Source of the DNA: Rhizobium skierniewicense
Lineage (GTDB): Bacteria; Pseudomonadota; Alphaproteobacteria; Rhizobiales; Rhizobiaceae
Assembly (NCBI RefSeq): GCF_014196515.1
Contig: NZ_JACIDV010000006.1
Location: forward strand, 1 to 64,000
Reading direction: 5' to 3'
Length of the DNA stretch: 64,000 bases
The first letter of the stretch is position 1. Each line of letters starts with the position of its first letter. Shown here piece after piece: positions 21,887-37,949 of this stretch. The notes beneath the pieces were generated by a model, which saw only the letters and a list, made by a program, of their open reading frames with translations, was not told the DNA's origin and did no database searches. Position numbers and translations under genes: made by a program.

Positions 21887-21928
21887 GAATGCGCTATGAT
21901 GACGCGGCGTAAAGGGAGACACCTGAGA

Positions 21929-22180
21929 ATGAATTCAACTATTCGTGAAATACTGTCGAAATTTGGTCAACTCCCCGTGCCGGTCGATACAATCGAAGAC
22001 GAGGCTGACCTTTACGCCGCCGGGCTTTCTTCTTTCGCGTCCGTTCAACTGATGCTCGGCATCGAAGATGCATTCGATATCGAGTTTCCAGACAGTATGC
22101 TCAACCGCAAGTCCTTCGCCAGTATCAAGTCCATAGAAGACACGGTCAAAACCATTCTCGATGGCAAAGAGGCAGCCTGA
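21929..22180 (+). CDS. Phosphopantetheine carrier protein partner of an amino acid:[carrier protein] ligase
   Basis: An 83-aa acidic four-helix carrier protein. The phosphopantetheine serine is probably Ser35 in AAGLSSFASVQLM (the usual motif is GxDSL, here GLSSF). It is not the fatty-acid ACP, which has a different sequence and setting. In A. tumefaciens and Bradyrhizobium such proteins are known to accept glycine or alanine from the seryl-tRNA-synthetase-like ligase encoded two genes downstream. The ATG at 21929 follows GGGAGACACCTGAGA; an upstream ATG at 21896 is less likely. The stop overlaps the next start by one base (TGATG). Confidence 0.88.
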   Translation: MNSTIREILSKFGQLPVPVDTIEDEADLYAAGLSSFASVQLMLGIEDAFDIEFPDSMLNRKSFASIKSIEDTVKTILDGKEAA

Positions 22181-23361
22181 TGAACATGTCGGTCGCCCCG
22201 CCTGATGCCACGTTGACGGCGCGCGCCTCGCGCGTTGCGACCATCGCGGCACGGCATGCCGACGACGTTGATACCGCCGGACGATTTCCGATAGAGGCCA
22301 TCGACGCCCTGCGCGCCGAACGTCTTTTGGGGATACAGGTACCTCTTGACCTCGGCGGAGAGAGTGCCAGCATCGCGCAAATCGCCGATATTTGCTGCAT
22401 CCTCGGCCAATCCTGTTCTGCAACCGCGATGATATTCGCCATGCATCACATCAAGGCATCGAGCCTGGTGGAACATGGCGAAGGCAGCAAATGGCACATG
22501 GCTTTCATGCGCCGTGTCGCCGCCGAGCAGTTGCTTTTGGCGTCCGCCACGACAGAAGGCGGCATTGGCGGCAACATGCGCAATTCCATCTGTGCCATCG
22601 AAGTCGACGGTCCCTGGTGTACGCTGGAAAAAGACGCGACCGTCATTTCTTATGGCACGCACGCCGATGCCATTCTCATCACCTCACGCGCCAATGCAGC
22701 GGCTGCACCCGCGGATCAGGTCATGACGGTTTTCCTGAAAGACCAGTACACGTTGGAGCGGACCCATATCTGGGACACGCTGGGCATGCGTGGCACCTGC
22801 TCCGATGGTTTCCTGTTCAAGGGCAAAGCACCCTCGGAGCAGATTTTCTCCAAGCCTTTTGCTGAAATCGCCGCGCAATCCATGCTGGCCACATCGCATC
22901 TTTTGTGGAGTGGCGTCTGGTACGGCATTGCCTCTGACGCGGTCTTGCGGGCACAGGCCTTCGTTCGTTCCGCCGCACGAAAATCACCGGGTGTCGCCCC
23001 ACCGGGCGCTATCCGTCTGGCAGAGGTGTCGAGCAAACTGCAGACTGTCAAATCGAATGTTATCGCCGGCCTCAAGGCCTATGAAAGTACCAAGTCGGAT
23101 CCCGACAAGCTGATGTCGATGGGGTTCGCCATCGCCATGAACAACGTCAAGATTTGCTCGTCGGAGACCATTCTCGAGATCGTCAATCACGCCATGCTGA
23201 TCTGCGGCATCATGGGCTACAAAAACGGGACGCCCTACAGCCTCGGTCGCCACCTGCGCGACGTCCACTCGGCGCAACTGATGATCTCCAACGACAGAAT
23301 CTTGAGCAATTCCGCCAATCTCCTGCTCGTGCAGAAGCAGGACACCAGTCTTTCAATATAA
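22180..23361 (+). CDS. Acyl-CoA dehydrogenase-like flavoprotein of the carrier-protein operon
   Basis: A 393-aa protein with the acyl-CoA dehydrogenase fold: helical N-terminal domain, a middle beta domain (LLLASATTEGGIGGNMRNS, TLGMRGTCSDGFLFKG) and a C-terminal helical bundle. The end (GYKNGTPYSLGRHLRDVHSAQL) is family-like, but the usual catalytic Glu near the C-terminus (YEGT) is not seen. It starts in the carrier-protein stop. In pyrrole-forming pathways similar enzymes oxidise aminoacyl groups on carrier proteins, so an aminoacyl-S-carrier substrate is a reasonable inference, not shown. Confidence 0.82.
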   Translation: MNMSVAPPDATLTARASRVATIAARHADDVDTAGRFPIEAIDALRAERLLGIQVPLDLGGESASIAQIADICCILGQSCSATAMIFAMHHIKASSLVEHGEGSKWHMAFMRRVAAEQLLLASATTEGGIGGNMRNSICAIEVDGPWCTLEKDATVISYGTHADAILITSRANAAAAPADQVMTVFLKDQYTLERTHIWDTLGMRGTCSDGFLFKGKAPSEQIFSKPFAEIAAQSMLATSHLLWSGVWYGIASDAVLRAQAFVRSAARKSPGVAPPGAIRLAEVSSKLQTVKSNVIAGLKAYESTKSDPDKLMSMGFAIAMNNVKICSSETILEIVNHAMLICGIMGYKNGTPYSLGRHLRDVHSAQLMISNDRILSNSANLLLVQKQDTSLSI

Positions 23362-23385
23362 ACTCTGGCCTTTCAGGATCACACC

Positions 23386-24294
23386 ATGGACATGCAAAAT
23401 ACGTTTCTGGATCGCCTGTTTGACAAAGGCCTGCTGATCGATACCGGCGTTGATGGCCTTTATGGCCGCAGCGGACAGTTCGAGGATGTCATTTCCGGCT
23501 TTGAGCGCCTGATCGGCACAGTCGGCGGTGCTGACAAGGCCGAAGTCATCCGCTTCCCGCCCGGCATCAACCGCGCTTACTTCGAAAAAAGCGGTTACAT
23601 GAAAAGCTTTCCGCAATTGGCTGGCACCGTCCATTCCTTTTGCGGTTGCGAGCTGGACCACGTCAGCCTGATCAAGAGCATGGATGAGGGCGCAGACTGG
23701 ACAAAAGACCAGAAGATTACCGACATCGTGCTGACGCCTGCGGCCTGCTACCCGCTTTATCCGACGATTGCAAAACGTGGAAACCTTCCGGAGAATGGTG
23801 GTCTCTACGACATACAGTCCTACTGCTTCCGCCATGAACCCTCCAAGGATCCGGCCCGCCAGCAGCTTTTCCGCATGCGCGAATATGTCCGCATGGGCAC
23901 CGAAAGCGACGTCACGGAGTTCCGCCAGCTATGGATGGATCGTGGCGTCGAGATGATGGAAAAGATCGGCCTTGATGTGAAGCTTGAGATTGCCAACGAC
24001 CCGTTCTTCGGGCGCGCTGGAAAGATGCTGGCCAACAATCAGCGCGACCAGAACCTGAAATTCGAACTGCTGATGCCGGTCACATCCACGACCAATCAAA
24101 CGGCCTGCATGAGCTTCAACTACCATCAGGACGCCTTTGGGGCGAAGTGGGGCCTCAACCTTGCAGATGGCACGGTTGCGCACACCGCATGCGTCGGCTT
24201 CGGGCTGGAGCGCATCGCATTGGCACTGTTTTCAAAACATGGGCTGGATGTCGAGCTATGGCCGCAGTCGGTGCGGGACGCACTTTGGGGCTGA
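23386..24294 (+). CDS. Amino acid--[acyl-carrier-protein] ligase (seryl-tRNA synthetase homologue)
   Basis: A 302-aa class II synthetase catalytic core without a tRNA-binding arm. It activates a small amino acid (Gly or Ala in characterised homologues) with ATP and moves it to the phosphopantetheine of a carrier protein. The three zinc ligands of the atypical archaeal-SerRS type are present: Cys121 (PAACYPLYP), Glu166 (RMREYVRMG) and Cys269 ([11 protein letters not shown], also motif 3). Their spacing is as in the family. It lies 24 bases after the flavoprotein and two genes after the carrier protein, its expected partner. Confidence 0.93.
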
Positions 24295-24301
24295 GGACGG
24301 C

Positions 24302-25288
24302 ATGACGAGCATCTTTCCGGCCTTAAACGCCGAAACCTACGTCCCGCATTCCCTTCACGCGCTGGAGAGGATGTGGCCGGAAACCAATTGCTATGTCGAT
24401 CTGTGGATCGAGCTTCTGGCGTCAAGCGGCCTACCGCCGGAAGCCATGCTCGGCTTTACGCTGGCACAGGATTTCGAGGGTGACCAGTTTACCTTTTTCA
24501 AAGTGCCGCTCGAAGACCTCGAAACACTGTATGGCATCCGCGTGACAGAACTCGCAATTTTCGACAGGCTCGAAAGCCACATCGCCATGCAGTTGCAGCG
24601 CGGTCGTATCTGCCTGATCGAGATGGACAGTTTCTATATGCCGGATACGCACGGCACCGCCTATCGCAAGGAACATGGAAAGACGACGGTCGCCATAAAC
24701 AGGATGGACGGGGTAAACCGCAGGCTGGAATACTTCCACAACGCAGGCTATTTCGCGCTGGAAGGCGACGATTTCTCAGGCATTTTTCAGCATCATCTAA
24801 CCGAGAACGATCCCCCCTTTTTGCCCTACACCGAATTTGCCAAATTCCCGGAAAAACCGTTGGGCGACACAGAGAGGCGGGCCGCAGCAGAGCGCCTTCT
24901 CGCTCAGCATTTTGCCAGGCGCCCGGACATCAATCCCATCAAGGCGTTTGCCGAGGTTTTTCCGACGCAAGTGGCGAAAGTGGCCGACCGTCCCTTCAGC
25001 TTTTTCCATAAGTACGCCTTCAACACGCTTCGCCAGTTCGGTGCCAATTTCGAACTTACGGCAAGCCATCTGGACTGGCTGGGCGGCGGGCAGCGCTACG
25101 GCCATGCGCCAAACCACGCACGTCGCATCTCGGAAGTCGCAAAATCTGCGCAGTTCCAGCTTGCCCGCGCCATCGCCCGCCGCAAGTTCGACACACTGGC
25201 AAATGCCCTCGACCCCGCCATCGCGGCCTGGGATGAGATGATGGCCGAACTCAATGACACGCTGAGCAAGACGAGCCAGGCCGCGTGA
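24302..25288 (+). CDS. DUF1839 family protein of the carrier-protein operon
   Basis: A 328-aa soluble protein beginning MTSIFPALNAETYVPHSLHA. It resembles the DUF1839 family, found next to amino acid:carrier protein ligases. Visible blocks are WPETNCYVDLWIELL, GDQFTFFKVPLEDLE, IEMDSFYMPDTHGTAYR and the C-terminal Ala/Arg-rich helix region. No known catalytic motif is obvious, but the invariant-looking Cys, His and Asp residues leave an acyltransferase role open. The start, seven bases after the ligase stop, removes a long shadow extension. It overlaps the next gene by four bases (GTGA). Confidence 0.75.
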   Translation: MTSIFPALNAETYVPHSLHALERMWPETNCYVDLWIELLASSGLPPEAMLGFTLAQDFEGDQFTFFKVPLEDLETLYGIRVTELAIFDRLESHIAMQLQRGRICLIEMDSFYMPDTHGTAYRKEHGKTTVAINRMDGVNRRLEYFHNAGYFALEGDDFSGIFQHHLTENDPPFLPYTEFAKFPEKPLGDTERRAAAERLLAQHFARRPDINPIKAFAEVFPTQVAKVADRPFSFFHKYAFNTLRQFGANFELTASHLDWLGGGQRYGHAPNHARRISEVAKSAQFQLARAIARRKFDTLANALDPAIAAWDEMMAELNDTLSKTSQAA

Positions 25289-27756: not shown

Positions 27757-28066
27757 GCAAACCACTATATCGCTTGTTCAAGCGCAAATGCTGGCGATAG
27801 GGAAGACCGTAAAGCCTTGAATTTCCGGGCTCTATCGCACTCTTAATGATTGATAATATTTCTGACCGACATGCGCCGGGCACGGGACAGTGGCTTTGAC
27901 GCAGTCGAAAACATCGACTACCGTCCCGTGAGCGTAATCAGGCAAAAATATGGGGGATTTTGCCTTTCAATTCCGTTCTCACTTTTTGATTTGGAGCCGT
28001 ATGATGTCGAGGCCTTCCTGGCCTGGACATCATACGGCTCGGCCCGGCAAGGGATAGCATTCCTAA
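27757..28066 (+). promoter_or_regulatory. Structured intergenic leader between the GH2 gene and the ABC-like gene
   Basis: About 310 bases without a gene but with three inverted repeats: 27881-27930 (CACGGGAC/GTCCCGTG enclosing AGTCG/CGACT), 27941-27964 (GGCAAAA/TTTTGCC, followed by TTTC, possibly a terminator of the upstream operon), and 27994-28040 (listed separately). The next gene starts at 28067 with AAGGGAT upstream. Confidence 0.6.
27994..28040 (+). repeat. 47-base near-perfect palindrome before the ABC-like gene
   Basis: Arms GAGCCGTATGATGTC and GACATCATACGGCTC (15 bp, perfect) enclose, after one unpaired base on each side, AGGCC-TTCCT-GGCCT. The whole forms one long hairpin ending 26 bases before the ATG at 28067. 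It may be a leader RNA element, a protein site or a copy of an intergenic palindromic repeat; no U tract follows, so a simple terminator is unlikely. Confidence 0.8.
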
Positions 28067-30784
28067 ATGGAAAAAAGTTTAACGCGCTATATCTGGAATC
28101 ACACTCGGCGGCAGCAGGTCTTCATTCTGCTGATCGTCGCGTTATCGATGATACCGTATTTCCTTGCCTTTGATCTTCCCAAGCAGATCGTCAATGGTCC
28201 CATCCAGGGAGACGGGTTCGAGGGGGTAAACTCAACCCAACTCTTCATGCATCTGGCGTGGAATGTTCCATACATCGGGCAGATCACTCTGTTTCCCGGT
28301 ATCGAACTGACCAGATTTGGTATGTTAATGGGTCTGAGCCTGACGTTCCTTGCGCTCGTCATCATCAACGGCCTCTTCAAATATTACATCAACACCTACA
28401 AGGGTCGGCTGGGCGAGCGTCTGCTGCGCCGCATCCGCTTCCAGTTGATTGATCGCATCCTGCTGTTCCCGCCTTCCCACTTCAAGCGGGTCAAAGGCGC
28501 GGAAATCTCCAGCATGATCAAAGACGAAGTGGAGCCGCTTGGTGGCTTTACCGGCGATGCATTCGTTCAGCCGGCCCTTCTTGGCGGACAGGCACTGGCG
28601 GCCCTTTTCTTCATTCTCGTACAGAATTTCTGGCTAGGCCTGATTGCGGCCTTCATGGCTGCCATCCAGGTCGGCATCATTCCGCAGATGCGCCGCCGTC
28701 TGATCGAACTTGGCAGACAACGCCAGTTAAGCGCACGGCAACTCGCCGGCCGCATCGGCGAAATGGTGGATGGTATCGGCACGATCCACGCCTATGATAC
28801 GTCCAACTATGAACGCGCGGATGCAGCTCATCGGCTCGGCGAAATCTTCAAGATCCGCTATGACCTGTACCAGTGGAAATTCATCGTCAAATTCGTCAAT
28901 AATTTTCTGGCGCAGCTGACACCGTTCTTCTTTTACTCGCTGGGCGGCTATCTGACGCTGAGAGGAAGCCTCGACGTCGGTCAGCTCGTGGCGGTGATCA
29001 ACGCCTACAAAGAATTGCCTGGCCCGTTGAAAGAACTGATCGACTGGGATCAGGCTCGCCAGGATGTTCAGGTCAAATATGAGCAGGTGTTCGAGCAATT
29101 CGATTCCCCACTGATGATTGACGCCAAGATACAGGCGCTGTCGCCAGAAGCAGCCGCTGCCATCACAGGACCGATCGTTATTGCCGGGCTGTCTCTGGAT
29201 GACGACAGTGGTACACGCCTTCTTGAACAGGCGTCCTTGACGATCAATCCCGGTGAAACCATCGGCATTGTCGGGACAGCAGGCGCGGAAGCACTCGCCG
29301 ATGCTTTGGGCAGAACGCTATGGCCAACCTCCGGCAAGATCACCCTCGGCGACACCGATCTCCATGAATTGCCGGAAGCCGTGACCGGACGCCGTATCTC
29401 CTATGTGTCAGCCGATACCTATTTCTTCCACGCCAGCCTGAAAGAAAACCTTGTCTACGGTCTTAAACACGCACCTTTAAAGCCAAAAGAGTATAGCGGT
29501 TCAGACCTCGAACACCGGAAGTGGGAGATTCGCGAAGCAAAGATGGCTGAAAACCCCAATATTGATATCAACAGCGACTGGATCGACTATGCGTCCAGCC
29601 CTGCGGGAAGCGATGACGAGGAGAAGTTCCTGAAAGCCATGTTGGCCGTGCTCGATACGGTCCAGCTCGCACCGGATGTTCTTGAGTTCGCCTTGCGTTC
29701 GTCCATCGATCCCCTGACCGACCTGCATCTGGCAGCACGGGTGGTGGAGTTGCGGCAGGCTCTGCGCGCCGAGCTGGAACAGGAAAATCTCAGCGGCCTG
29801 ATCGTGCCCTTCGAATCCGACAGCTACAATGCCGAGGCGACGGTTGGCGAAAACATCATGTTCGGCACCATGCGGGATTCCTCGTCAGGAAGCCGCAAGA
29901 TCATCGATAGCGAGTATTTCCGCAATCTGATGCGCGGCAGCGGCCTGTCCGATACTCTGTTTGACATGGGCTTTACGATCGCTGAAAACGTGGTCGAAAT
30001 CTTCAGCGATCTTCCGCCTGATCATCCGTTTTTCCAGCAACTGACCTTCATGACGGCAGACGACATTCCCAGCTACCAGCAGATGCTGCAGCGTCTTCAG
30101 GGCAAAAGCTACAAGGATGCCACCGACGCCGAGAAACGCGCCATGCTGCGCCTCAGTTTCTTCTACATCGAGCCGCGCCAGCGTTTTGGTCTGCTGACGC
30201 AGGAGGTCATGGACAAGATTGTCGAGGTTCGGCACATGTTCCACGAGAAGCTGCCGGACGACCTGCGCAGCTGGATCGAACCCTACGATCCGGAAAAATA
30301 CGGTACGTCTGCCAGCCTTCTAGACAATATCCTGTTCGGCAAAATCAGCCACCGTTTCCCTGACGCATCCCGACGCATCACCAAGATTGTTGCTGATGCG
30401 ATGAAGAAGCAGGGCCTTTACGAAAAGGTTCTGGCTGTTGGACTCGAATTCAACCTGGGTGCGGGCGGCAAGCGGCTGGGCCCCTTGCAGCGTCAGAAGC
30501 TTAACCTGGCACGCGCCTTGATCAGAAAATCGGACTATTATGTTCTGAACCGCCCGCTTCCAGGCCTCGATCATCGCCTGCAACAGGAAATCGTTGACAA
30601 TGTCATCGCGTTCTTGCGCAACGATGGCGCCAATCCGGCCGTGTTGTGGGTCCTTTCAAACCCATCACTTTCAAAAATGTTTGACCGTGTTATCGTCATC
30701 AACCATGGGTCGATCGTTGCTGACGGACCATATGAGACTCTTGTCGAAGAAAACGATACATTCAAGGAAATGATCGCAGCCTGA
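28067..30784 (+). CDS. ABC-transporter-like protein with a degenerate, enlarged nucleotide-binding domain
   Basis: A 905-aa protein with an exporter-type membrane domain (about six helices, residues ~15-315) followed by an NBD-like region. Every ATPase motif is lost: the P-loop is GTAGAEAL (403-410) without Lys-Ser, the signature is LGPLQ (804-808), Walker B ends LNRP (827-830) instead of DEP, and the switch His is Asn865. Between Q-loop and signature lie about 340 residues, not ~50, holding three copies of one module: HASLKENLVYG (455-465), EATVGENIMFG (590-600), SASLLDNILFG (748-758). The frame is intact, so it is a diverged protein, not a broken gene. It leads a set of cAMP-related genes and may be a membrane scaffold or sensor. 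Confidence 0.85.
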   Translation: MEKSLTRYIWNHTRRQQVFILLIVALSMIPYFLAFDLPKQIVNGPIQGDGFEGVNSTQLFMHLAWNVPYIGQITLFPGIELTRFGMLMGLSLTFLALVIINGLFKYYINTYKGRLGERLLRRIRFQLIDRILLFPPSHFKRVKGAEISSMIKDEVEPLGGFTGDAFVQPALLGGQALAALFFILVQNFWLGLIAAFMAAIQVGIIPQMRRRLIELGRQRQLSARQLAGRIGEMVDGIGTIHAYDTSNYERADAAHRLGEIFKIRYDLYQWKFIVKFVNNFLAQLTPFFFYSLGGYLTLRGSLDVGQLVAVINAYKELPGPLKELIDWDQARQDVQVKYEQVFEQFDSPLMIDAKIQALSPEAAAAITGPIVIAGLSLDDDSGTRLLEQASLTINPGETIGIVGTAGAEALADALGRTLWPTSGKITLGDTDLHELPEAVTGRRISYVSADTYFFHASLKENLVYGLKHAPLKPKEYSGSDLEHRKWEIREAKMAENPNIDINSDWIDYASSPAGSDDEEKFLKAMLAVLDTVQLAPDVLEFALRSSIDPLTDLHLAARVVELRQALRAELEQENLSGLIVPFESDSYNAEATVGENIMFGTMRDSSSGSRKIIDSEYFRNLMRGSGLSDTLFDMGFTIAENVVEIFSDLPPDHPFFQQLTFMTADDIPSYQQMLQRLQGKSYKDATDAEKRAMLRLSFFYIEPRQRFGLLTQEVMDKIVEVRHMFHEKLPDDLRSWIEPYDPEKYGTSASLLDNILFGKISHRFPDASRRITKIVADAMKKQGLYEKVLAVGLEFNLGAGGKRLGPLQRQKLNLARALIRKSDYYVLNRPLPGLDHRLQQEIVDNVIAFLRNDGANPAVLWVLSNPSLSKMFDRVIVINHGSIVADGPYETLVEENDTFKEMIAA

Positions 30785-31446: not shown

Positions 31447-31482
31447 ATGTTCGTGGTAAATTGGGGTGTATCATGGCATTGA
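31447..31482 (+). CDS. Possible 11-aa leader peptide overlapping the metallo-hydrolase start
   Basis: MFVVNWGVSWH, preceded by GGGAGGAAG, the best ribosome site in this area. Its stop lies ten bases past the ATG of the metallo-hydrolase gene in another frame, an arrangement suited to translational coupling. It may be chance. Confidence 0.3.
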   Translation: MFVVNWGVSWH

Positions 31483-32333
31483 ATTCCGACGATCACCGTC
31501 GGGACAATAAACAGGAATTTAGAGTTAAGATTTGGGGAGCGCGAGGAACGCTACCCGTTTCAGGAGACAAATTCCGTAAGTATGGTGGCAACACAATCTG
31601 CATCGAGGTGAGGTGCGGAGATCATGTCTTGTTATTCGATGCAGGATCAGGACTGCTTCCCGCAGGTCAGGCTCTGAAAGCCGAGGGCATCTGCGACGTC
31701 AACATGTTCTTTTCCCACTGTCATTACGACCACATCATCGGCTTCCCCTATTTCAAACCATTCTTCAATCGCCAGAACGATGTGCGCATCTGGTCCGGCC
31801 ATTTGGCAGGACAGAAAACGACACACGAGATGATCGCCGAATTCATGAGCCCGCCGTGGTTTCCTGTCCCACTTGACGTATGCTGCGCACAAATCGTTAC
31901 CGAGAATTTCAAGGCGGGAGATGTTCTTGCCGTCCATCCCGATCTCAACATCACCACCGGCATGCTCAACCACCCTGGAAATGCCATCGGTTACCGTATC
32001 GATTGGCAGGGCCGCAGCCTTGCGATCATCACGGACACGGAACACGAAGCCGGCAAGCTGGATAAATCGGTCTTAAAGCTCATCGATAATGTGGACCTCT
32101 TCCTCTATGATGCAAGCTTCACCGAGGCTGAGATGAACACATACAGGGGCTATGGTCACTCTTCATGGCAGCAAGCCGTTTTGCTGGCAAAGCACGCAAA
32201 CGCCAAGAGTGTCGGCCTCATTCATCACGCGCCTTTCCGCACAGATGACGAGATTGATGTTATCGAGGCAGATGCACAGAAAGAGTTCCCCGGCATGTTT
32301 GCAGCCTGGGACGGGCAAACGATAGAGCTGTAG
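31473..32333 (+). CDS. Metallo-beta-lactamase fold hydrolase, possible cyclic-nucleotide phosphodiesterase
   Basis: A 286-aa MBL-fold protein. The metal motif HxHxDH is SHCHYDHIIGFP, with further ligands in MLNHPGNAIGYR, the ITDTEH Asp, and a late His (IHHAP). The start (VKIWGARGTLPVSGDKFRKYGGNT) is that of the PhnP/RNase Z-related group acting on phosphodiesters. Lying between a cyclic-nucleotide-binding protein and an adenylate cyclase, it is a candidate cAMP phosphodiesterase; this is inference. The ATG at 31473 has GGGGTG before it; a TTG at 31461 is possible. Confidence 0.8.
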   Translation: MALNSDDHRRDNKQEFRVKIWGARGTLPVSGDKFRKYGGNTICIEVRCGDHVLLFDAGSGLLPAGQALKAEGICDVNMFFSHCHYDHIIGFPYFKPFFNRQNDVRIWSGHLAGQKTTHEMIAEFMSPPWFPVPLDVCCAQIVTENFKAGDVLAVHPDLNITTGMLNHPGNAIGYRIDWQGRSLAIITDTEHEAGKLDKSVLKLIDNVDLFLYDASFTEAEMNTYRGYGHSSWQQAVLLAKHANAKSVGLIHHAPFRTDDEIDVIEADAQKEFPGMFAAWDGQTIEL

Positions 32334-32486
32334 GCAGAGCATGTTTGATCGATGCCAACGACGTGATCTCCGACCGCTTCTGATTTTCAACGCATTGGCG
32401 TATAGCAACGAAACGCCATAAACAGGGACGTCTCCCCTGGCAATTTGCCGAACCGCGACAACACAAGGCAACTGGAGACACGCGGC

Positions 32487-34145
32487 ATGGCCAACATCCT
32501 ATCGGAAACGTCGCTGAGGCGTGCACGATTGCTGTCCGGCCTTATCATGCTCCTCTTCGTCTTCAGCCACCTATCCAACCACGCTCTGGCGCTGGTGTCG
32601 CTTGAGACCGCGGAAAACGGCCGCAGATGGTTCAGCCTTATCTGGCTCAATCCTGTCAGCAGTGTGATTTTTTACGGCGCGGTTCTCACGCACATCATTT
32701 TGGTCTTGCGGTCCATCTATGTGCGCCGTTCGCTAAAGATGCCGACGCGCGAGGCCTTGCAGATCATCATCGGTCTTTTAATCCCGTATATGATCATCGA
32801 TCATGCCAGTGGTATCCGCCTTTCACGGATGCTCTACGGCATCGACATCGGGTACGAGATCGTCATCAATAACTTCTGGATCCGCAATCCGATGTTAGGC
32901 CTGCGGCAAAGCACCGTCCTCATCCTGATATGGGCGCATGGATGCCTTGGCGTGTTCTTCTGGTTGCGCTATCGCGATTGGTATAAGAAGATCTCACCCT
33001 ATCTGCTGACCATTGCGGTGCTCTTGCCCATTCTGGCACTTCTGGGCTTCAGCGATGCGGGCCGGGAAATGGAGTACAATCCGCCGCCGCCGCGTGTTCC
33101 CCATGCCAATCAGGCCGAACTCGAGGCTGTGATCGACGGATTTACAAACGGTGCGAAAATTCTCTTCGGCAGCGCTGTTGTCTTCATCTTTGCACTTCGC
33201 GGCCTGCGCAGTTGGCGCCAACGGGCAAATGCATTCGAAATTCGTTATGAACACGGAGCGCTCGTCCGGGCATCCGCAGGCCTGAGCGTCCTGGAGGCGA
33301 GCCGAGCGGGCGGCGTATCCCACTTTTCAGCCTGTGGCGGCAAAGGCCGGTGTTCCACTTGCAGGGTGAGGATCATCAACACGCAAGGGCCGTTGCCGGA
33401 ACCGTCTACGATGGAACGTGCCACACTTCAGCGTATCCATGCCGATTCTGACGTCAGGCTCGGATGCCAACTTCGCCCCAAGCACAGTCTGAGCGTTGCC
33501 CTTCTCCTGGCCTCAAAACAGCAAAGTGACATTCCCGCCAGCGGCGAGCCGATCCGACCCGGTCGCGAAGAGGAAATCGCGGTGATGTTCTGTGATCTTC
33601 GAAATTTCACCGCATTGTCGGAAGCGCGCCTGCCCTATGACATGGTGTTTTTGCTCAACCGCTACTTCACCGTCGTCGGCCAGGCCGTTGAGCAGGCGGG
33701 TGGCAGGTTGGACAAGTTCATCGGTGATGGTGCGATGGCCCTATTCGGGCTCGATGGCAACAAGGAAACCGCAAGTCGCGATGCCTTGAAAGCTGCGGCA
33801 CTGATCCTTCGCAATATCGAGGCGCTCAACGAAGAACTCGAAAAGCAGTTTTCCGTCAAACTGCGTATCGTGATCGGCATCCACGCCGGCCCCTCTATTG
33901 TCGGTGTCATGGGCTACGGGGCGGCAAAAACACTCACTGCAATCGGTGATACTGTTAACGTCGCGAGCAGGCTCGAAAGCGCAGCAAAGGATTTCAATAC
34001 GGCAATTGTCGTGTCCGAACCGGTCATTGTGCAATCGGGCCATCCAAACGCAGTTTTGGAAAGCCGGACCATACCCATCCGAGGCAAAAGTGCGCACATG
34101 AAGGTCTTCCTGATTTCTGAAACAGAAAGCCAGCGCTTCGTTTAG
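32487..34145 (+). CDS. Membrane adenylate cyclase with SdhC-like anchor and 2Fe-2S domain
   Basis: A 552-aa class III cyclase. The N-terminal half has about six membrane helices (to ~240) with histidines at 28, 32, 69, 106 and 151 that could bind heme, like the succinate-dehydrogenase-type anchor described for S. meliloti CyaC. Next is a plant-type ferredoxin domain with Cys283, 289, 292 and 327. The catalytic domain (~362-515) has both metal Asp residues (FCD370, GD414G), Lys410 and Asp488 for adenine, and Arg495. All catalytic residues are present, so it should make cAMP, probably under redox control. GGAG precedes the ATG at 32487. It ends five bases from the convergent methyltransferase gene. 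Confidence 0.88.
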   Translation: MANILSETSLRRARLLSGLIMLLFVFSHLSNHALALVSLETAENGRRWFSLIWLNPVSSVIFYGAVLTHIILVLRSIYVRRSLKMPTREALQIIIGLLIPYMIIDHASGIRLSRMLYGIDIGYEIVINNFWIRNPMLGLRQSTVLILIWAHGCLGVFFWLRYRDWYKKISPYLLTIAVLLPILALLGFSDAGREMEYNPPPPRVPHANQAELEAVIDGFTNGAKILFGSAVVFIFALRGLRSWRQRANAFEIRYEHGALVRASAGLSVLEASRAGGVSHFSACGGKGRCSTCRVRIINTQGPLPEPSTMERATLQRIHADSDVRLGCQLRPKHSLSVALLLASKQQSDIPASGEPIRPGREEEIAVMFCDLRNFTALSEARLPYDMVFLLNRYFTVVGQAVEQAGGRLDKFIGDGAMALFGLDGNKETASRDALKAAALILRNIEALNEELEKQFSVKLRIVIGIHAGPSIVGVMGYGAAKTLTAIGDTVNVASRLESAAKDFNTAIVVSEPVIVQSGHPNAVLESRTIPIRGKSAHMKVFLISETESQRFV

Positions 34146-36111: not shown

Positions 36112-37209
36112 ATGAAAATTGCATTCTACAGCCCGCTGAAATCACCCAATCATCCTGTTCCCTCCGGCGACCGGCTGATGTCGCGCCTGTTGATGCAGGC
36201 CATGCGTCTTTCAGGACATGAGGTGGAGGTGGTATCAGAGCTTCGCAGTTTCGTGCGCGAGCCGACAGGACAAAGCATCACTGACCTGAGATTGGTGGCG
36301 GAAACAGAGAAAGAGCGCATCGCTGCCACATGGATCCGCAAGGTCAAACCCGATCTCTGGTTCTGCTACCATCCCTACTATAAGGCGAGAGACCTTCTCG
36401 GACCTGAGCTGTGCAAACGTTTCGATGTCGTCTATGTCACGGCGGAAGCATCCTACGCGCCGAAACGCAACGCAATGGGTTGGGAAGAGATACAGGCTGC
36501 ACTTCTGGCCGATCTCCAGTTCGCCGCCGTCAACATTTGCTTCACCGGCAGAGATCATGACGGGCTTTCAAAAGCCGACATTGGCCTCCGCCTGGCCATG
36601 CTTGCGCCCTTTATCGACGCATCGACATTTGTAAAAAGAGCGCCATCCCCAAACCGGTATCGCTTGGCCACAGTTGCGATGATGCGCCCCGGTGACAAAG
36701 TCAGCAGCTATCGGGCGTTATCGGAGGCTTTGAAGCTGGTGCCCCCGGAACTTCCCTGGACATTGGATATCGTCGGAGACGGCCCAGAACGGGCGACGGT
36801 GGAAGACCTATTCGGCAGGTTCGACCCAAAACGCATCGTCTGGCATGGCGAACAACGGGCCGAAAAAATCTCTGAGATCCTGTCGCAGGCTTCGCTCTAC
36901 GTGTGGCCGGGACATGGGGAGGCCTATGGATTGGCTTATCTGGAAGCACAGGCTGCCGGTTTGCCCGTGATTGCGGAGCGGATCGCCGGCGTTCCGGAGG
37001 TCGTCATGGATGGTGAAACCGGTCTTCTGACGGAACCCGGTGACATCAAAACCTATGCCGATGCCTTGATATATCTGATGGAAAACGACGGTCAGCGTCA
37101 GGCGATGGCGGCGAAAGCCCGCCATTTCGCCACCTTCACCCGCTCCCTTGAACGTGCCGCCATGACATTGAATGATATTCTCGAAAATCTTCCGGAACAG
37201 ACGTCATGA
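36112..37209 (+). CDS. Glycosyltransferase family 4 protein
   Basis: A 365-aa GT-B transferase. The N-terminal domain starts MKIAFYSPLKSPNHPVPSGDR, and the C-terminal domain has the nucleotide-sugar site (LDIVGDGPERATVEDLF, then LYVWPGHGEAYGLAYLEAQAAGLPVIAERIAGVPEV compressed as E-x7-E). It is divergent from the nucleotide-sugar dehydrogenase and overlaps the following deacetylase gene by four bases (ATGA), which suggests that both act on the same polysaccharide. Donor and acceptor are unknown. Confidence 0.88.
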   Translation: MKIAFYSPLKSPNHPVPSGDRLMSRLLMQAMRLSGHEVEVVSELRSFVREPTGQSITDLRLVAETEKERIAATWIRKVKPDLWFCYHPYYKARDLLGPELCKRFDVVYVTAEASYAPKRNAMGWEEIQAALLADLQFAAVNICFTGRDHDGLSKADIGLRLAMLAPFIDASTFVKRAPSPNRYRLATVAMMRPGDKVSSYRALSEALKLVPPELPWTLDIVGDGPERATVEDLFGRFDPKRIVWHGEQRAEKISEILSQASLYVWPGHGEAYGLAYLEAQAAGLPVIAERIAGVPEVVMDGETGLLTEPGDIKTYADALIYLMENDGQRQAMAAKARHFATFTRSLERAAMTLNDILENLPEQTS

Positions 37210-37949
37210 CCCATAAACTGCTTCTCGAAACGCTGGATGATTTTGCCAGCAAGAACATCGTCGCGGACGTCTGGCTTCGCGATGACGATGCCACACAGCC
37301 AAGTCCCGCATTGGATCGGCTGATGGACCTGTCTAAGCAATATGGCGTGCCGATGACGCTGGCCGTCATACCGGAACCAACCGGCGAGGCGCTGGCGCAA
37401 CGGCTTGAGAGCATGACAGGGATCGACGTGGCCGTGCATGGCTGGGCACATCGCAACCACGCGAGACCGGACGAAAAAAAAAGAGAACTCGGGCTACACA
37501 GACCGCTGGCAACGGTGTTGGGTGAGTTGCAGACGGCCCTGAGCAAACTCCAGTCCTTGCACGGCGCTCGTTGCGTTCCGATGCTGGTACCGCCCTGGAA
37601 CCGGATCGATCAGACAATCGCCGCCCATTTGCCGCAAGCGGGTTACGAGGCGCTATCGGTTTATGGTCCCGAGACATCGGGCAGCATTCCTCTTCTTAAC
37701 ACGCATATCGATGTCATCGACTGGCGTGGCACGCGGGGCGGCAAGGACCATGACCTGCTTTTTGCCGAAACCGCTGTGCGCATGCGCCAAGCACAGGAGA
37801 CGGGCGGCATGACAGGCATCCTCACCCACCATCTCGACCACGACGAAAACGTCTGGGCTTTTCTCCATTTGCTTTTCGCATTGACGGCCAATCACCCCGG
37901 TTGCCGCTGGCGCTCTTCTCGCCACTGGCTTGAACAGACATCACCATGA
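37206..37949 (+). CDS. Polysaccharide deacetylase-like protein
   Basis: A 247-aa NodB-fold protein. The metal site is seen as VWLRDDDATQP (Asp pair) and HGWAHRNHARP (HxxxH-like), and a further His near the end (LTHHLDHD). No signal peptide, so it would act in the cytosol, possibly on a lipid-linked sugar made with the GT4 enzyme to which it is coupled. It overlaps the end of the convergent GT32-like gene by nine bases. Confidence 0.82.
   Translation: MTHKLLLETLDDFASKNIVADVWLRDDDATQPSPALDRLMDLSKQYGVPMTLAVIPEPTGEALAQRLESMTGIDVAVHGWAHRNHARPDEKKRELGLHRPLATVLGELQTALSKLQSLHGARCVPMLVPPWNRIDQTIAAHLPQAGYEALSVYGPETSGSIPLLNTHIDVIDWRGTRGGKDHDLLFAETAVRMRQAQETGGMTGILTHHLDHDENVWAFLHLLFALTANHPGCRWRSSRHWLEQTSP

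Follow-up and report, generated by a model that had tools for sequence, protein, structure and literature searches.

ABC transporters are defined by ATP-driven movement, and cyclic-nucleotide-gated channels such as SthK possess a cyclic-nucleotide-binding (CNB) domain that controls a membrane domain unrelated to that of ABC exporters. The presence of a degenerate ATP site in one half of an ABC transporter is well known, and in Pdr5 NBS1 all the key residues have been lost, according to extracts of PMC7756269. With regard to the family considered here, which we term pseudo-ABC exporters, no description was found in the open PMC literature among the matches listed, subscription papers lying outside this scope, and PMC6858071, in its available extract, concerns other exporter genes.

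The locus lies in a window of 64,000 nucleotides, the whole stretch of Rhizobium skierniewicense DNA that was analysed (contig NZ_JACIDV010000006.1, positions 1 to 64,000), and its features are collected in Table 1. A preliminary description, made from the letters alone, had recognised a 905-codon frame with an exporter-type membrane domain and had taken the ATPase fold to be retained; both points are borne out. PF00664 matches residues 89–311 of the product (2.9e-20), and the PF00005 match is limited to the first part of its domain (residues 386–483, model positions 1–80 of 137). The best of five AlphaFold models of the full protein, built from 60 sequences, has a mean pLDDT of 77 and a pTM of 0.69 (the others 60–67); in this model, ten-residue blocks of the nucleotide domain range in pLDDT from 61 to 94, mostly above 80, and the stretches 155–176 and 316–349 of the membrane domain fall almost wholly below 50. 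When submitted to Foldseek, the full model retrieves type IV exporters, with a best E-value of 4.8e-14 and a TMt of at most 0.59 among the 50 matches listed, the alignments covering about 915 columns against half-transporters of about 570 residues, with large rmsd and moderate TM-scores. From the two domain profiles and the predicted model, an exporter membrane domain and a nucleotide-domain fold are present in a single chain. The domain profile search of this protein gave no match to a C39 peptidase.

Table 1. Features of the locus, with positions in the window, strand, and supporting evidence or remarks.
Feature	Positions	Strand	Evidence or remark
Pseudo-ABC exporter, 905 aa	28067..30784	+	ORF, domain profiles, AlphaFold, Foldseek
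Membrane domain, residues 1-345, most conserved large part	28067..29101	+	PF00664; mean pairwise identity 51%
P-loop remnant GTAGAEAL, residues 403-410	29273..29296	+	Family alignment
Q-loop module 1 (M1), residues 441-466	29387..29464	+	Profile comparisons
Long stretch from first Q-loop to signature position, residues 466-802	29462..30472	+	
Q-loop module 2 (M2), residues 576-602	29792..29872	+	Profile comparisons
Q-loop module 3 (M3), residues 734-760	30266..30346	+	Profile comparisons
Signature position LGPLQRQ, residues 804-810 (LGPLQ 804-808)	30476..30496	+	SGG 0/85
Walker B position YYVLNRPLPGLD, residues 824-835 (LNRP 827-830); D-loop LD kept	30536..30571	+	
Switch (H-loop) position WVLSNPS, residues 861-867	30647..30667	+	His in 19/85
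Stand-alone CNB protein, 168 aa	30795..31301	+	Only PF00027 found (1.3e-20); cassette GEIAIL...RTATV kept
MBL-fold protein, possible accessory	31461..32333	+	RNase Z models best, 79 bits (cutoff 252)
Class III adenylate/guanylate cyclase with 2Fe-2S ferredoxin domain, possible accessory	32445..34145	+	
GT4 glycosyltransferase, related to recurrent neighbour	36112..37209	+	Family in 28/57 loci
Polysaccharide-deacetylase-like protein, related to recurrent neighbour	37206..37949	+	Family in 16/57 loci

Upstream of the gene, a near-perfect 47-nt palindrome at 27994–28040, with 21-nt arms, one mismatch, and a 5-nt loop, lies 26 nt from the ABC start codon. Among 13 other genus loci inspected by eye, a similar hairpin with changes on both arms was seen in the two closest relatives (L002 and L003) and was absent in 11. 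Its identification as a dispersed repeat was rejected; beyond its own two arms, the genome holds a single arm-like match, with three mismatches.

At the places where GxxGxGK(S/T) (Walker A), LSGGQ (signature), the Walker B Asp-Glu pair, and the switch His would be expected, the window protein carries GTAGAEAL, LGPLQ, LNRP, and WVLSNPS. The first three had been read correctly in the preliminary description; the loss of the switch His had been seen as well, but was assigned to a change into Asn, and the alignment places the His column at Ser864, the Asn being its neighbour N865. For the comparison across homologues, 187 sequences scoring above 100 bits were collected, a number of genes being represented twice, from two collections, with sequences of the class draw taken from about half of its 132 matching genomes and matches under 100 bits (e.g. 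L030) left out. Reduction at 80% identity gave 88 sequences, and 85 rows, window included, were counted after dropping L169 and L178, which consist of the membrane domain only, and L171, an 863-aa divergent frame with a competing opposite frame. In none of the 85 is the signature SGG intact. The P-loop Lys is present in 41, the following Ser/Thr in 8, and both in 4, the position after the Lys being most often occupied by Glu (40/85) or Asp (25/85) in place of the canonical Ser/Thr. The Q-loop Gln is found in 15 homologues, the Walker B Asp in 14, the catalytic Glu in 33, and the switch His in 19. No homologue keeps more than four of the seven motif items, eight reach four (the best-preserved members including L162, L138, and L115), and 28 keep none, so that the motif losses are conserved and none of the 85 has normal motifs. 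To judge by these alignments, the residues for ATP binding and hydrolysis have decayed in every homologue examined and the window protein has no usable ATPase site; some members may still bind nucleotide weakly, given the eight with four items and the 41 with a P-loop Lys.

The gene is maintained by selection. Whole-gene dN/dS against seven close relatives is 0.028–0.063 (individual regions reach up to 0.12, and dS is saturated in some cases), which indicates purifying selection; the earlier conclusion that the gene is under selection therefore holds, but the argument then given for it, the open frame, is weak. A decaying pseudogene is rejected on the same dN/dS values and on the presence of the full-length gene in all 37 genus genomes, the window's own included. 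Long homologues occur in 8 of 24 other genomes of the order, and the closest named relative of the ABC protein, from Agrobacterium rubi, is 96% identical. At a loose cutoff, 61/61 relatives match, ordinary exporters included. At E 1e-40, the class draw gave matches in 132 of 385 genomes, and the phylum draw in 30 of 398, none of these 30 lying outside the class (the share of the 398 from outside the class is not listed). Homologues are found on plasmid records of Rhizobium, Sinorhizobium, Ruegeria, Azospirillum, Sulfitobacter, and others, and those annotated, among the matches listed, bear ABC transporter labels. Within the family, the membrane domain has a mean pairwise identity of 51%, the nucleotide-domain core one of 37%, and the three Q-loop blocks values of 47, 51, and 45%. 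In 18 canonical, motif-intact exporters taken from genomes of the genus and order relatives, the corresponding values are 27% for the membrane domain and 54% for the nucleotide domain. On these sequence samples, conservation is thus inverted relative to canonical exporters, and it is the reversed order that counts rather than the levels, since the two sets were drawn differently and the 18 are of mixed subfamilies. Relatives made of a membrane domain without a nucleotide domain are also present (L169, 5868–7091, and L178, 2197–3276); by eye, the neighbours of L178 include glycosyltransferases, and those of L169 MerR-like regulators and thioredoxin-like genes.

Between Walker A and the signature, the window protein has about 400 residues, compared with 104–109 in the 18 canonical exporters, in which 48–53 residues separate ENxxxG from the signature (12 of the 18, where the motif was found). 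From the first Q-loop to the signature, the window protein spans about 337 residues, close to the 340 first estimated, and the 85 homologues 308–407. The preliminary description had placed three repeats of the Q-loop module in this stretch, HASLKENLVYG (455–465), EATVGENIMFG (590–600), and SASLLDNILFG (748–758), and its count of three proves right. In hhalign comparisons of profiles of the 85 rows, M2 and M3 match with a probability of 98.3% (E 2.5e-14), M1 and M2 with 90.2% (E 1.5e-6), and M1 and M3 with 87.1% (E 4e-6). When the columns of M2 were shuffled five times, the highest probabilities were 0.43% against M3 and 0.28% against M1, which rules out chance repeats. Three control segments outside the modules remained at or below 0.77%; a fourth, 620–733, reached 53.7% against M1 and 7.9% against M3, owing to a helix common to the modules (S1–S2). 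The Asn of the (E/D)NxxxG form is kept in 82, 85, and 85 of the 85 homologues for modules 1, 2, and 3, respectively. Against a profile of the 18 motif-intact exporters, M1 aligns with the canonical Q-loop (97.2%, 24 columns) and M3 with the whole stretch from Q-loop to signature (99.4%, 89 columns). M2 scores only 36% against canonical Q-loops directly, and its identity as a Q-loop therefore rests on its similarity to M3. The unit of helix, strand, and Q-loop ahead of modules 2 and 3 is shared (S1–S2 98.1%; score 54.7, the highest of 20 shuffles being 14.6). Homology reaching further, into the signature helix (S1 or S2 versus S3), is not supported, the scores lying under the shuffled maximum. 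Taken together, the module and S1–S2 comparisons define the duplicated unit as a helix, a strand, the YDPxxYN loop, the (E/D)NxxFG helix, and the GL helix that follows. In the full AlphaFold model, every module displays a strand and a short helix starting 14 residues past the strand start (444/458, 579/593, and 737/751), so that the three segments share local secondary structure in this model, which speaks against unrelated folds. When residues 440–760 were modelled alone, the mean pLDDT was 65, modules 1 and 3 were not confidently reproduced, and the middle helical part alone was well predicted; this low-confidence model had no PDB match better than E 1.3.

The gene following the pseudo-ABC exporter codes for a CNB protein, whose real start may be a later ATG at residue 11. 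Only PF00027 was found in its 168 residues, and the helix-turn-helix of a Crp/Fnr regulator is absent, although its S. meliloti counterpart is labelled Crp/Fnr. In 67 of the 85 homologues, the start of a CNB domain lies on the same strand no more than 1 kb downstream (within 236 nt in 66 of these), and in 12 others the domain is fused to the ABC C-terminus, giving 79/85 in which it forms the next gene or the protein's own C-terminus. On a quick membrane-domain tree with many unresolved forks, the fusions amount to two changes, which points to few events and not 12 independent ones. None of the 18 canonical exporters, each with at least 1.1 kb of downstream sequence available, has a CNB gene beside it. 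Five homologues have no CNB next door, and three of their genomes carry a strong match on another contig; the other two, a 63% complete assembly and a 100% complete one (G168), gave no match at E 1e-20. One homologue with an apparent frame change at its end (L128) was counted neither as adjacent nor as fused, and the CNB gene of L059 seems divided between two frames. Of note, three members without an adjacent CNB gene (L115, L130, and L133) are among those with the best-preserved ATPase motifs (4 of 7); in two of the three genomes concerned, another contig holds a CNB match, the third genome being the 63% complete assembly.

In the phosphate-binding cassette (81 rows from 80 loci, the window's copy counted twice), Gly and Arg are present in all 81 rows, and the acidic residue is Glu in 76 and Asp in 5. 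The best PDB match of the window CNB protein is a Toxoplasma protein with several CNB domains, followed by cGMP-dependent kinases; its further matches include PKA subunits, Crp-type proteins, and, more weakly, the SthK channel (1.6e-10). These features suggest that the protein is able to sense cyclic nucleotides such as cAMP. By analogy with HetC, whose CNB domain binds ppGpp in vitro (extract of PMC10986499), another ligand could be bound. Adjacency and fusion, as arrangements of genes, speak for a link between the ABC protein and the CNB domain rather than for a particular mechanism. The overall interpretation of the preliminary description is partly supported: the fold, the motif loss, and the tripled module stood, and contact of every module copy with the membrane domain would be a further assumption. 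It had missed the CNB linkage and fusion, which point to function better than the repeats do.

With regard to the further surroundings, neighbour families were named by eye from similar genes and counted in 57 long-flank loci, L171 being left out, and all counts are lower bounds owing to cut flanks. The most frequent glycan neighbour, a GT4 family, occurs in only 33 of the 57, followed by a second GT4 family (28), a GT28-type MurG-like transferase (21), a deacetylase-like protein (16), a histidine phosphatase (15), a methyltransferase (13), the MBL protein (13), and the ferredoxin-cyclase (9). In the window, the MBL-fold protein also matches a cyclic-nucleotide phosphodiesterase model (58 bits, cutoff 400), all its curated matches lying below cutoff. 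The cyclase, in which hydrophobic N-terminal segments are visible by eye, is a possible redox- or iron-controlled source of cyclic nucleotide, as its domain composition would allow. Annotated records agree in part with the counts. The R. etli CIAT 652 locus comprises a UDP-glucose dehydrogenase on the opposite strand, an adenylate cyclase, a four-gene peptide-type importer, redA, the redB glycosyltransferase, a second transferase, the ABC gene, and a small 'transcriptional regulator' at the place of the CNB gene; that of S. meliloti a cyclase, an importer, a GT4, methyltransferases, the ABC gene, and the 'Crp/Fnr' gene. A sugar dehydrogenase, transferases, a histidine phosphatase, a deacetylase, and a 1034-residue ABC gene are found in Sulfitobacter, and a methyltransferase, a 1048-residue ABC gene, an importer, and two GT4s in Azospirillum lipoferum; by their length alone, these two ABC proteins suggest CNB fusion. 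The four-gene ABC importer (peptide-type according to the R. etli label) recurs beside the pseudo-ABC gene in Rhizobium, Sinorhizobium, and Azospirillum (L189, L190, and L192). Elsewhere in the window, a row of genes at 21896–25288 comprises some that by eye resemble acyl carrier protein and acyl-CoA dehydrogenase genes, one for an amino acid--[acyl-carrier-protein] ligase (NF005479, above cutoff), and one for a DUF1839 protein.

We can propose that, in the pseudo-ABC exporter, a cyclic nucleotide has taken the place of ATP as controlling ligand, the CNB sensor controlling the membrane domain, perhaps for a surface-glycan pathway, a reading that we regard as evenly poised between right and wrong. 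It starts from an exporter membrane domain and a nucleotide-domain fold that, by sequence and model, are retained under purifying selection with decayed ATP residues, and from a CNB domain with an intact phosphate-binding cassette, tied to the ABC protein in the genomes. The two proteins would form one complex, in which binding of a cyclic nucleotide to the sensor would move the pseudo-nucleotide domains, and this movement would be passed to the membrane domain where the Q-loop modules, the original and its two additional copies, would make coupling contacts; those additional copies may double as docking sites for the sensor. The output, as the adjacent glycosyltransferases suggest, could concern a surface glycan or glycolipid that they make, its passage or flipping being gated or its synthesis regulated. 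A protein that does not use ATP is no primary pump, and would hence work as a gated permease or scramblase, or else transduce signals in the membrane. We put forward more tentatively, expecting it to fail rather more readily than to hold, the view of an ABC exporter branch wholly without ATP, in which both dimer sites are dead and the CNB sensor, docked on the multiplied Q-loop modules, drives or gates the movement of the membrane domain; the result would be an ABC-derived permease or scramblase gated by a second messenger, one that is common in Alphaproteobacteria but goes under the annotation of an ordinary ABC transporter.

The protein might instead not be a transporter, the membrane domain serving as the anchor of a cyclic-nucleotide-responsive scaffold or switch that regulates the neighbouring glycosyltransferases. 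The loss of the ATPase, the CNB linkage, the expanded cytoplasmic domain, and glycosyltransferases in up to 33 of the 57 loci agree with such a role, but no other large part is as well conserved as the membrane domain (51%), a level beyond what an anchor would require, and relatives reduced to it exist (L169 and L178), so that we hold this possibility to be doubtful, though far from negligible. The main rival that would make the pseudo-ABC exporter less unusual is a hidden ATPase partner: the protein would be the degenerate half of a heterodimeric exporter, the ATPase-active half being encoded elsewhere and the CNB protein merely tuning it. Heterodimers with a degenerate site are common, Pdr5 NBS1 having lost the Walker A Lys, the Walker B Glu, and the H-loop His together (extract of PMC7756269); the D-loop LD and the fold are kept here, and the window genome holds 16 exporter-like matches at E 0.001. 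Against this, no second exporter half was found nearby in 57 of 58 long-flank loci and one was present in a single locus, a count that covers nearby genes and leaves room for a distant partner gene. Furthermore, the signature, needed to complete the site of a partner, is broken in all 85 homologues, and degenerate sites have not deviated between orthologues (same extract of PMC7756269), whereas in this family drift is stronger in the nucleotide domain than in the membrane domain. We consider a partner of this kind unlikely. Still less probable, to the point that we would be surprised by it, is that most members still work on ATP as exporters with unusual motifs, those of Rhizobiaceae being simply the most decayed: the P-loop Lys (41/85), the catalytic Glu (33/85), and the switch His (19/85) persist in a part of the family, but SGG is nowhere found, no member exceeds four of seven items, and the position after the P-loop Lys is acidic in most (Glu 40/85, Asp 25/85).

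If exchange of ATP for a cyclic nucleotide is the right reading, a ligand other than ATP can drive the transmission that joins cytoplasm and membrane in an ABC machine, and the cell surface becomes a site of cAMP/cGMP signalling in rhizobia and their relatives. The family offers a natural test system for the roles of the Q-loop and coupling helices without ATP, and it exposes the mis-annotations 'multidrug ABC transporter' and 'Crp/Fnr regulator'.

Compared with known systems, the pseudo-ABC exporter is like the type IV (type I exporter) ABC transporters MsbA, TM287/288, and TmrAB in its membrane domain, domain order, and nucleotide-domain fold, and differs from them by the absence of ATPase motifs, the long stretch between Walker A and signature, and the CNB partner. 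The likeness of SthK to the window CNB protein is confined to the sequence of the CNB domain. TIGR03896 (cyc_nuc_ocin), a CNB-containing, bacteriocin-type transport-associated model with an architecture longer than the window CNB protein, gives it 43 bits, far under the cutoff of 161. TAP, TM287/288, BSEP, CFTR, and Pdr5 NBS1 have likewise lost Walker, signature, and switch residues at one site, but in these transporters, according to the extract of PMC7756269, the degenerate site lies beside a canonical one, which a pseudo-ABC homodimer would not have. HetC of Nostoc, a peptidase ABC exporter, also carries a CNB domain on the exporter chain; in HetC, the domain is N-terminal, the catalytic Glu is essential, and a C39 peptidase is present (extract of PMC10986499), whereas no peptidase was found in the window protein, and in pseudo-ABC exporters the ATPase has decayed and the CNB domain is C-terminal or borne by a separate protein.
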